Assembly (NCBI GenBank): GCA_021161545.1
Contig: JAGHAJ010000171.1
Location: 1-5,094, forward strand
Length of the DNA stretch: 5,094 bases
Source of the DNA: Synergistota bacterium
Lineage (GTDB): Bacteria; Synergistota; JAGHAJ01
Reading direction: 5' to 3'
In this document: positions 667-4,237 of the stretch, piece after piece
Position numbering within the stretch: position 1 is the stretch's first letter
Layout of the letters: each line of letters begins with the position of its first letter
The notes under the pieces: model-generated
What the model was told of the DNA's origin: nothing
Database searches by the model: none
What the model saw: only the letters and a program-made list of their open reading frames with translations
Position numbers and translations under genes: made by a program

Positions 667-2253
667 GTGAAAGGTTTCTTTATGCCTATCCGTAAGATAG
701 GATTTTTGGAGCTCTCTGGGCACCTGAATGGGGCTAAAAAGATGGGTTATATTAGGTCTCCGTCTAACTTTGCTTTTCGAAAACTGCTTGAAGCGATGAA
801 AACACAGAGGATTAATAAAGTATCTTCTGATGCAGAGCTTATGCATTACACATTTAGAAAGAGCATACTGAAACTGATTTCAGAGAGGTTATCATCTGTT
901 TTCCCAGAAGTTAGTAAAGGGAAGGTAGAAAAGGACCTGAAGAAATTACTTTTGAAGCATGGAGTTGATCCTGATAGTGACAGTATAAATAAAGGGATGA
1001 TGCTCCTTGTTACCGTTCAGGAGATTAGAAGTCTTATCCATTTTATAGAGCCTTCTGCTATGGGAAAGGTCAAAGAGTTGCTTTCTCAGAAGGGCAGGAT
1101 AATGGAGGAAATTAGTAAGTATATACGGATAGATGGTAATATCAAGAGAGAGATTGACGGGCTTTTTGAGGAACTGAGGGAGATGGTTGATGCTCTTGAT
1201 GAGGATGTTAAGGTTGATTATCGCACTAAATTAATGCATGTTCCTGAAAGGAAAGAAGGTAAACATAGTTTGGTAAGCAAATTGCAGGCTAAGGAGAGTG
1301 GCACTTATGTTCGTGAGAAAGGTGCAAGAGATATTAGCAAAGATCAGATAACACCGGAGAAGAAAGGTTCATTAAGTAATACGGTGAGATCAGATGTTGG
1401 TAAGGTAACCGTGATGGAAAGGTCTGCGGAGGGTTACAAGCAGATTTTGAGTGCTATTGACAAGGTGAAGAATAACAACCATGATGCAATCAAGGGCAAG
1501 CCTGATGCTGTTGATAAGGTTGCACGCGTTATGAGTGAGATTGCAGTAGAAAATAATAGTAAAGATGTAAAGATGCGTGTGAATGTTGGTGAAAGGCGTT
1601 CTGGTATGTCTTTAGATGTTAGGGATGCTGGTATAATCATGAGGCATGAACAACATGATGCTGGGAAGAAACTTCTTTTGTCGGCAGGGAAACCCTCTGA
1701 AAATGACTACAGAGAGTTTGAAAATGGGAAGGATAAAGGTTTGCCTAATGCAGTAAGTGATTTTAGTATGTCCAATCGGACCAATATTACCCCTAAGGTT
1801 GAAGGTCAAACCCCATCCCTTGGCGGAAATCAGCGCGTCCTTTCAGAGTTGGTTAGCAGACAGATAGTGGAGAGAATGGATGTAGCGCTTGCTAATGGAC
1901 AGAGAGAGATAGTAATGGAATTGCAACCACCGCATCTTGGTAAACTGAGAATACAAGTGTTGATACATGGTAATAATATTTCTGCTAACTTTTGGACGCC
2001 ATTTTCCGATGTAAAGGCGATTATCGAGTCTGGACTTGCTTATCTTCAACAGCACTTTCAAGAACAGGGTATGAACCCGCAGGCTTTTTCTGTGTTTGTT
2101 GGAGGTGGGCAGACATCTGAGAGGCGTGAAGAAGTGGAATATAATGCTTCTGATGGTAGAAAAAGGCTGTTTTCTTCCCTTGCTGAAGATGAAGGGGAAA
2201 TGCAAGTGGAATCGGTTGTTAATGGGCATTATCTTGTGAACTTGGTGGGATAA
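667..2253 (+). CDS. fliK: FliK, flagellar hook-length control protein
   Basis: FliK is exported through the flagellar secretion system, measures the growing hook, and signals FlhB to switch from hook to filament substrates. This copy has 528 residues. The conserved C-terminal domain (Flg_hook family, about 390-480) is clear: it contains E418-L-Q-P-P-H-L-G-K-L427, then a beta segment with an Asn pair, an amphipathic helix, and EQGMNP before a final beta strand (F474-V478). This matches the family pattern L-x-P-x-x-L-G-x-L followed by a helix ending in a Gly turn. Residues about 50-185 look mainly helical and are not recognisable beyond FliK context. Residues about 190-385 are polar, rich in Lys, Ser, Asp and Asn, and probably disordered, as expected of a molecular ruler. 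There is no cysteine and no signal peptide, as is normal for type III export. The start is GTG at 667, chosen from the Shine-Dalgarno at 651-660. It lies between the motE/flbB-type gene and flgD, the usual place. The N-terminal two thirds are assigned by context. Confidence 0.9.
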   Translation: MKGFFMPIRKIGFLELSGHLNGAKKMGYIRSPSNFAFRKLLEAMKTQRINKVSSDAELMHYTFRKSILKLISERLSSVFPEVSKGKVEKDLKKLLLKHGVDPDSDSINKGMMLLVTVQEIRSLIHFIEPSAMGKVKELLSQKGRIMEEISKYIRIDGNIKREIDGLFEELREMVDALDEDVKVDYRTKLMHVPERKEGKHSLVSKLQAKESGTYVREKGARDISKDQITPEKKGSLSNTVRSDVGKVTVMERSAEGYKQILSAIDKVKNNNHDAIKGKPDAVDKVARVMSEIAVENNSKDVKMRVNVGERRSGMSLDVRDAGIIMRHEQHDAGKKLLLSAGKPSENDYREFENGKDKGLPNAVSDFSMSNRTNITPKVEGQTPSLGGNQRVLSELVSRQIVERMDVALANGQREIVMELQPPHLGKLRIQVLIHGNNISANFWTPFSDVKAIIESGLAYLQQHFQEQGMNPQAFSVFVGGGQTSERREEVEYNASDGRKRLFSSLAEDEGEMQVESVVNGHYLVNLVG

Positions 2254-2269: not shown

Positions 2270-2713
2270 GTGCCTTATGTTAATCCTACAACGGGTAGCT
2301 ATAGAGTGATGAATTCTGTTAGGAAAAAAGATGAACCACCTAAAACGACCTTAGGTAAGGACGACTTCTTGAAACTTTTGATGGTTCAGCTTACCAACCA
2401 GGATCCCTTAAAGCCAATGGAGGACAAAGAGTTTATAGCTCAAATGGCACAGTTCAGCACGCTTGAGCAGATTACAAACATGGCAAAGGAGATGAGTACC
2501 CTTAACAAGATTAATAGTTACTCCCTTTTAGGGAAAAAGGTGAAGTTCCACTACTATGATGAAGGTGACCAGGAAGGTACGGTCACAGGTGTCAAGTTTA
2601 CTGAAGCAGGTGTTAAACTGGAAATAGATGATGGTAAGTATGAAATATCCATGGATGATGTGTTTGAGGTCGATAACACGACAGGGAGTGTCGATCAAAC
2701 CATGGGAGGTTGA
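2270..2713 (+). CDS. flgD: FlgD, flagellar hook capping/scaffold protein (short form)
   Basis: FlgD caps the growing hook so that FlgE subunits fold and polymerise beneath it, and is discarded once the hook is complete. The 147-residue protein carries the family's signature N-terminal helix region: G29-K-D-D-F-L-K-L36, then Q40-L-x-N-Q-D-P-L-K-P49, then E54-F-I-A-Q-M-A-Q-F-S-T-L-E-Q67. A small beta-rich domain follows (about 83-135, with LLGKKV and EISMDDVFEV), like the Tudor-like part of FlgD. The Ig/FN3-like domain inserted in enterobacterial FlgD (about 230 residues) is absent, as in the short forms of Firmicutes and some other phyla. Translation starts at GTG 2270. It sits between fliK and flgE and ends in a Shine-Dalgarno that serves flgE. 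Confidence 0.95.
   Translation: MPYVNPTTGSYRVMNSVRKKDEPPKTTLGKDDFLKLLMVQLTNQDPLKPMEDKEFIAQMAQFSTLEQITNMAKEMSTLNKINSYSLLGKKVKFHYYDEGDQEGTVTGVKFTEAGVKLEIDDGKYEISMDDVFEVDNTTGSVDQTMGG
2704..2710 (+). promoter_or_regulatory. Shine-Dalgarno of flgE overlapping the flgD end
   Basis: GGGAGGT lies in the last two sense codons of flgD (Gly-Gly), with its GGAGG core 10 bases before the flgE ATG at 2720. The flgD stop is only six bases from that start, which suggests translational coupling of cap and hook protein. Confidence 0.75.
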
Positions 2714-2719
2714 TCTAAA

Positions 2720-4237
2720 ATGCTGCGTTCATTGTTTACTGGAATATCTGGATTAAGAAATCACCAAACCCTGTTGGATGTTATAGGTAATAATATTTCT
2801 AATGTGAATACTGTGGGTTTCAAAAAGAGCCGAGTGGAGTTTAGAGACCTTCTTTATCAGAGTATTCAGTCTGGATCTGCTCCTCAGGCAGGTAGGGGAG
2901 GGACAAATCCAAAGCAGATAGGGTTAGGTGCACAGATTGCGGCAATAAGTACCATACACACACAAGGAGCTTTGGAGAATACCGGGAACGAATCTGACCT
3001 TGCCATTCAAGGTAACGGATTTTTCATAGTGAGCGATGGTTCAAGAGACCTTTATACAAGGGCAGGGAACTTTGAAGTTGATGCGAATGGTAATTTGGTA
3101 AACCCTGAAGGCTATATACTGCAGGGCTGGTCTGTTGATTCTTCTGGAAATGTGAGTAATGTGCTCACAGATGTGAATATACCTATTGGGCAGAAGTTGG
3201 CTGCGAATGCTACCACGACGGTGGATTATAGCTGTAACTTGGATAGCAGTGCACCACGGGTAGTGACTGAGGATGAAAGTTTTACGATTAGCGCTGATAC
3301 AGTTTCTCTTCACTATGCGTACGATACTGGTGGGGGGCAGTGGGTTGTCTCTGTGATTTCAGGAACAGACGTTTCTGTTGTCTCTATTCCTCCTGCTGAA
3401 GATGGGACGTTTGGGAGCTTATCACAGACAGTTTCTGTGAATGGACATAGGATAAGTATAACTACTGTATCTGGAGGTACAGGTATAAAGTATTATAATG
3501 CAAGCTTTGCTACGAGTCATACAACTTCATTTAATACGTTGGGTAGCCATGATACATCTATAGATGTGTATGACTCCGAGGGCAATAGCTATACTCTAAA
3601 GACGGTTTTCAATAAGGTTGATGACAATACGTGGGAGTGGCGAGCTTACTTACCAGACAACCCATCTGGGGTTACTATTTCTGATAATAATGGTGTGTTG
3701 AGATTTGGTACAGATGGACTCATAACAGATGCAACTGGTGGGCCTATTGTTATAACTCCTACGGGTGCTGAACCTATTACAATAACTCCAGATTGGGGAG
3801 TTGATGACCCTATAAGTGGTGTTACCCAATTTGCGTCTTCTTTTACGACATCGGCTAAATATCAGGATGGTTATACTATGGGTGTCCTTGAAACGTACTC
3901 TGTTGACCAGAATGGAAATGTAATAGGACACTTCGATAATGGTCAAAATGGAACCCTTTATAGGATACCTCTCGCTCTCTTTAATAACCCTGCTGGCCTT
4001 GATAAGGTGGGTGATACCCTGTTTGCGGAGAGTGTAAACTCTGGTGTACCGCAAATTAAACAGGCCAATACTGGTGGTGCGGGTTCTATTACTGCTGGAG
4101 CATTGGAGATGTCCAATGTGGACATGGCGGAGGAGTTTACCAGCATGATCATTGCACAGAGGGGATTCGAAGCAAATGCGAGGGTTATAACGACGGCAGA
4201 TTCTATACTTGCTACCCTTATGAACATAAAGAGGTGA
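2720..4237 (+). CDS. flgE: FlgE, flagellar hook protein
   Basis: FlgE polymerises into the hook, the universal joint between rod and filament, after export by the flagellar type III system. The 505-residue protein has the rod/hook N-terminal helix (residues 1-37, with S10-G-L12 and G23-N-N-I-S-N28, then V32-G-F34). An LAIQGNGFFIV strand follows (94-104), then a D2-like beta domain with I-D-V-Y-D-S-E-G near 281-288, and the returning strands from about 371. The C-terminal helix (460-505) ends with F-E-A-N-A-R-V (483-489). There is only one cysteine, C172, followed by N173, with K159 thirteen residues upstream. This arrangement matches the residues that form the lysinoalanine crosslink of spirochaete hooks (K165, C178 and N179 in Treponema denticola). 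It is about 100 residues longer than the enterobacterial protein; much of the excess lies at about 180-260, between the Cys-Asn motif and the D2-like domain. The two-ended helix pattern is shared with FlgF and FlgG, but length, the D2 domain and flgD next door favour FlgE. Confidence 0.96.
   Translation: MLRSLFTGISGLRNHQTLLDVIGNNISNVNTVGFKKSRVEFRDLLYQSIQSGSAPQAGRGGTNPKQIGLGAQIAAISTIHTQGALENTGNESDLAIQGNGFFIVSDGSRDLYTRAGNFEVDANGNLVNPEGYILQGWSVDSSGNVSNVLTDVNIPIGQKLAANATTTVDYSCNLDSSAPRVVTEDESFTISADTVSLHYAYDTGGGQWVVSVISGTDVSVVSIPPAEDGTFGSLSQTVSVNGHRISITTVSGGTGIKYYNASFATSHTTSFNTLGSHDTSIDVYDSEGNSYTLKTVFNKVDDNTWEWRAYLPDNPSGVTISDNNGVLRFGTDGLITDATGGPIVITPTGAEPITITPDWGVDDPISGVTQFASSFTTSAKYQDGYTMGVLETYSVDQNGNVIGHFDNGQNGTLYRIPLALFNNPAGLDKVGDTLFAESVNSGVPQIKQANTGGAGSITAGALEMSNVDMAEEFTSMIIAQRGFEANARVITTADSILATLMNIKR

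Follow-up and report, generated by a model that had tools for sequence, protein, structure and literature searches.

The hook protein FlgE of the Synergistota bacterium studied here, and that of nearly all flagellated Synergistota that were read, probably forms a lysinoalanine (Lal) bond that joins adjacent hook subunits, as spirochaete FlgE does. The Lys and Cys concerned were found in the register of Treponema denticola FlgE in the window, which is the whole stretch of DNA analysed (5,094 nucleotides). By analogy with spirochaetes, FlgE would be exported and then assembled as the hook. Beta-elimination of H2S from C172 in one subunit would leave dehydroalanine, to which the K159 amine of an adjacent subunit would add. 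The resulting hook would be a covalent polymer resisting denaturants. We infer the Lal chemistry, its yield and its mechanical role in Synergistota hooks from this analogy.

Hook protein gene and operon

The source genome (1.58 Mb, 288 contigs, 82% complete) was placed within Synergistota, alone in its family among 185 genomes, and the window is one entire contig (G000:C235). Its operon, on the + strand, encodes a protein matching MgtE_N/FliG_M, followed by fliK, flgD, flgE, flbD and the start of motA. FlgE was identified by Pfam domains above the cut-off, by the adjoining fliK and flgD genes and by fold matches to hook structures (Z 20-24). The features referred to below are:

667..2253, + strand: fliK, hook length control, flgE operon (PF02120)
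2270..2713, + strand: flgD, hook cap, flgE operon (PF03963)
2720..4237, + strand: flgE, hook protein, 505 aa (Pfam Flg_bb_rod, FlgE/F/G D1, FlgE_D2 and Flg_bbr_C; PDB FlgE matches)
3194..3196, + strand: K159, equivalent of T. denticola K165, the Lal lysine (alignment to 6ndx_B without gaps; Lys in 82/86 Synergistota genomes)
3233..3235, + strand: C172, equivalent of T. denticola C178, the dehydroalanine precursor (6ndx_B alignment; Cys in 78/86 and Ser in 4/86 Synergistota genomes)
3236..3238, + strand: N173, equivalent of T. denticola N179, not diagnostic (near-universal in FlgE)
3845..3847, + strand: T376, equivalent of T. denticola T334 (Thr in 56/57 Synergistota FlgE read there, namely those whose region was found by a simple motif rule)
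3851..3853, + strand: S378, at the T. denticola K336 position (Lys in 51/57 Synergistota FlgE, read by the same rule; K380 of the window lies two residues on)

C172 is the sole Cys of the window FlgE and is followed by N173; K159, 13 residues earlier, is the sole Lys between K65 and K257. A preliminary description had reported this arrangement of the single Cys, the Asn and the Lys, and it was confirmed with exact coordinates in the open reading frame (2720-4237).

Register on the T. denticola crosslink site

The PDB sequence match between the window FlgE and T. denticola FlgE (6ndx_B) was free of gaps in this region (IPIGQKLAANATTTVDYSCNLD in the window versus IPIGQKLDAKATTSVNYAANLD), and K159, C172 and N173 were aligned with K165, C178 and N179; the 6ndx_B chain has Ala at position 178. 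Numbering a T. denticola-like FlgE (L220) from its Met gave K165, C178, N179, T334 and K336, the five positions marked in a 2023 survey (PMC10691653). An AlphaFold model of the window FlgE, made as a monomer only, had block pLDDT values mostly of 70-92 for residues 81-460 and of 60-66 at 361-380, with poor values in the D0 helices. Residues 162-386 of this model matched the T. denticola D2 crystal structures (T. denticola residues 168-344; Z 13-14), one of which is the dehydroalanine intermediate 6ndt. At either end, the match agreed with the register of the sequence alignment. The earlier placement of K159 and C172 at the K165 and C178 positions was thus borne out by the alignment and by the predicted fold; the comparison, which had been named beforehand as able to refute the placement, was made and no misplacement was seen. 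Both the gap-free register and the agreement of the fold at the two D2 ends argue for a Lal bond. A lysinoalanine-hook protein is expected to have Lys at the K165 position and Cys or Ser at the C178 position, and by this sequence criterion the window FlgE is a predicted one.

The remaining marked positions were less uniform in what they contribute. Asn at the N173 position is near-universal in FlgE across all groups, and for this reason N173 gives no support to a Lal hook and was dropped as evidence, having been given too much weight in the preliminary description. The statement that Gly or Ala usually precedes Asn-Leu elsewhere was correct in that these two are the most frequent residues, but Ile, Val and Leu are common there too. 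Thr is present at the T334 position of the window (T376), and the Lys of the K336 position is replaced by S378, with a Lys two residues later. This Ser, which is common to the window and family f3, counts against a Lal bond and is the weakest point of the case for the window itself. Lys at K336 is not invariant among spirochaetes either, being found in only 34 of the 39 spirochaete FlgE read there by the motif rule. Both positions are conserved in Synergistota, as listed above, and variable in other phyla. Hook proteins otherwise seldom contain Cys (55/67 FlgE of other phyla are without any). Conservation and rarity both favour the Lal bond.

Distribution in Synergistota and Spirochaetota

Counted per genome and with the window excluded, 78 of 86 Synergistota carried Lys+Cys, four carried Lys+Ser and four had neither. 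Since the same pattern recurs in 78/86 genomes, Lys-x12-Cys in the window is more than a chance occurrence, and the Lys/Cys pair is a trait of the phylum. When named genomes were scanned with a profile of the motif region (A1), 28 loci were obtained, 27 of them titled Synergistaceae, Synergistales, Acetomicrobium or Dethiosulfovibrio. In the four genomes without the pair, the residues at the two positions were Thr/Gly, Gln/Asn, Glu/Asn and Glu/Gly; these genomes correspond to about three losses on a tree of 158 FlgE rows, and Lys and Cys vanished jointly each time. All 73 Spirochaetota genomes had a pair, either Lys+Cys (40) or Lys+Ser (33). The Lys+Ser form of Synergistota (L189, L194, L197 and L201, in G158, G154, G164 and G150, respectively) parallels the form seen in Leptospira.

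Synergistota FlgE with Cys but without Lys were found only as extra copies in Synergistaceae, in genomes that also hold a Lys+Cys or Lys+Ser copy. In these copies (L055 1131-2660, L035, L190, L205 and L186, in G153, G157, G158, G148 and G152, respectively) Val or Ser stands for Lys159 and the Cys is kept. Hooks of Synergistaceae with several flgE genes might therefore be a mixture of donor-only and full subunits.

Coupling of Lys to Cys or Ser

Cys and Ser are the residues able to yield dehydroalanine. Lys occurred with 139/145 Cys sites and 41/44 Ser sites (180/189 pooled), versus 7/63 sites with other residues, and this preference favours a Lal bond. Of 14,706 column pairs covering the N-terminal part of an alignment of 158 FlgE, positions 159 and 172 ranked first by corrected mutual information, and within Synergistota the two columns were each other's best covariation partner. 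This first rank, together with the genome counts (Lys+Cys in the large majority, Ser in four and both residues lost in four), argues for the same reading. In a test on independent pairs, 5.2 of 7 went in the same direction and 0 in the opposite direction (median p 0.06). With only other phyla included, the pair held rank 235, and Lys was still associated with Cys or Ser (Fisher p 1e-6). The covariation is partly owed to shared ancestry, which counts against the Lal reading.

Coupling by itself is no proof of chemistry. Lys might be coupled to Cys or Ser non-covalently, by packing or a hydrogen bond across the D1-D2 subunit interface, in hooks that are non-covalent throughout Synergistota; in keeping with this, seven FlgE of other phyla keep Lys with Gly, from which it follows that Lys has a separate role in part of the FlgE family. 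We consider this explanation unlikely, as the same coupled residues make Lal in T. denticola, B. burgdorferi, Brachyspira and Leptospira (PMC10691653), and T334 and K336 are retained as well. A different purpose of the Cys, such as metal binding or a disulfide between subunits, would fit the 48 of 79 Synergistota FlgE that have two or more cysteines. The motif Cys is nevertheless the only one in the other 31, as it is in the window, its coupling partner is Lys and the coupling survives substitution by Ser, so that such a purpose is very improbable. The preliminary description's covalently crosslinked hook is accordingly retained as a prediction, supported by the register, the phylum-wide conservation, the paired loss and the top covariation in the N-terminal part.

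Many Synergistota FlgE (L006-L047 and L156-L215) are about 630-990 aa long, and their open frames extend to about 1,500 aa at most. The outer domains of these long forms contain large inserts, and many of the proteins carry extra cysteines.

Flagellar type

The L-ring gene flgH was found in 33/33 Synergistota tested, including the window's genome (G000:C267:5787-6290); one of these genes was partial, at a contig end. To our knowledge, spirochaetes are usually said to be without an L-ring. Among the 21 spirochaetes tested, flgH was absent in 13 and gave weak matches in eight; these matches (G389, G390, G392, G395, G407, G429, G442 and G484) were above the cut-off. FlaA was not found in the window's genome, which is 82% complete, and with its flgH gene this genome has neither of the marks of a spirochaete periplasmic flagellum (FlaA present; L-ring gene absent or diverged). 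Thermanaerovibrio acidaminovorans and T. velox are described as moving by means of lateral flagella, which are borne on the concave side (PMC3035242; PMC3910556), and FlgE of both species (L014 and L012, respectively) has Lys+Cys. From flgH in all Synergistota tested and from the lateral flagella of these pair-bearing species, Synergistota flagella are taken to be external. The bond has been explained by periplasmic flagella, and their absence here counts against the Lal reading; if formed, the predicted bond would be located in external flagella, and the adaptation would therefore not be confined to periplasmic ones.

Other phyla

Sampling of 64 genomes of other phyla gave four with Lys+Cys (G320, G339, G304 and G303), four with Lys+Ser (G200, G268, G294 and G377) and 56 with neither. 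Three genomes of the small phylum around G318 had Lys+Cys and one had Arg/Gly. Four genomes of the G320 phylum were found, two of them with FlgE, both Lys/Cys. Lys-x12-Cys loci were L108, L250 and L251 in the G318 phylum, L110 and L303 in the G320 phylum, and L115, L121 and L124 in three further non-Synergistota genomes. The sheath protein FlaA was detected in two spirochaete controls and in none of the other-phylum genomes carrying the pair; in the non-Synergistota Lys-x12-Cys genomes without FlaA, flgH matches were strong wherever tested. One locus with a Synergistota-like FlgE (L052, JAGHDJ010000074.1), on a 4-kb contig of a 'Dehalococcoidia' genome, was set aside as probable contamination.

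Origin of the pair

Both in the 158-row tree and in a separate, careful tree of 74 rows, spirochaete FlgE and core Synergistota FlgE each formed a group of their own, with good support. Because the two sets group separately, recent transfer from spirochaetes is an unlikely source and was rejected. The window FlgE was placed near the base of Synergistota FlgE, adjoining the family f3 branch; in the 74-row tree it was paired with G268 (Lys+Ser, other phylum; 96/78).

Synergistota and Spirochaetota FlgE were adjacent in the 74-row tree, with weak support (70/91). This position agrees with passive inheritance of Lys and Cys from an ancestor common with spirochaetes, the reaction having become weak or lost. 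Yet FlgE of different Synergistota branches are no more than about 40-60% identical, while the pair is kept in 78/86 genomes and is lost jointly, which makes mere inheritance quite improbable. We lean slightly towards Lal hooks being an older trait, and not one that spirochaetes invented in connection with periplasmic flagella. They would be common to the external-flagella Synergistota and scattered elsewhere (two small phyla and three or more further lineages), and would either predate the split of Synergistota and Spirochaetota or have been gained repeatedly.

Comparison with known hooks

T. denticola FlgE (PDB 6ndx, 6ndt) has the Lys-x12-Cys-Asn register, the T334 residue and the D2 fold in common with the window. 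It differs in its host, a spirochaete and not a Synergistota member with external flagella and an L-ring gene, in having Lys where the window has Ser at K336, and in that the bond of the window is a prediction. Leptospira FlgE, which forms Lal, has Lys together with a dehydroalanine-capable residue at the same sites; the latter is Ser in Leptospira and in the four Lys-Ser Synergistota genomes, versus Cys in the window. The non-crosslinked FlgE of Salmonella and Campylobacter (PDB 6k9q, 5jxl) have the FlgE fold of the window but are without a Lys-Cys pair at these positions.

In spirochaetes, Lal is formed by FlgE of T. denticola, B. burgdorferi, Brachyspira and Leptospira, with the Ser variant in the last, and Cys is a more reactive dehydroalanine precursor than Ser (PMC10691653). 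The reaction is self-catalysed, without a partner enzyme (PMC10691653), which also favours its occurrence in Synergistota. For the 2023 survey, FlgE sequences of all bacteria were retrieved and those of spirochaetes alone were analysed, and the bond was viewed as a spirochaete adaptation to unusual cell structure and motility (PMC10691653). No report of a Lal hook outside the spirochaetes was found in the literature searched, which included work since 2023 and did not cover the primary Lal papers of 2016 and 2019 (Miller 2016; Lynch 2019). The preliminary description had suggested an extension of the chemistry to another phylum should the host not be a spirochaete; the host belongs to Synergistota, so the predicted extension stands. 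If it is true, the link between the bond and periplasmic flagella would be broken by an entire phylum that has these residues and whose flagella are external, and the reason for welded hooks would become a general question of load or stability. Drugs against the Lal reaction may be less spirochaete-specific than proposed, since the residues are not limited to spirochaetes. The prediction is directly testable, as Thermanaerovibrio species are cultured and motile by their lateral flagella.
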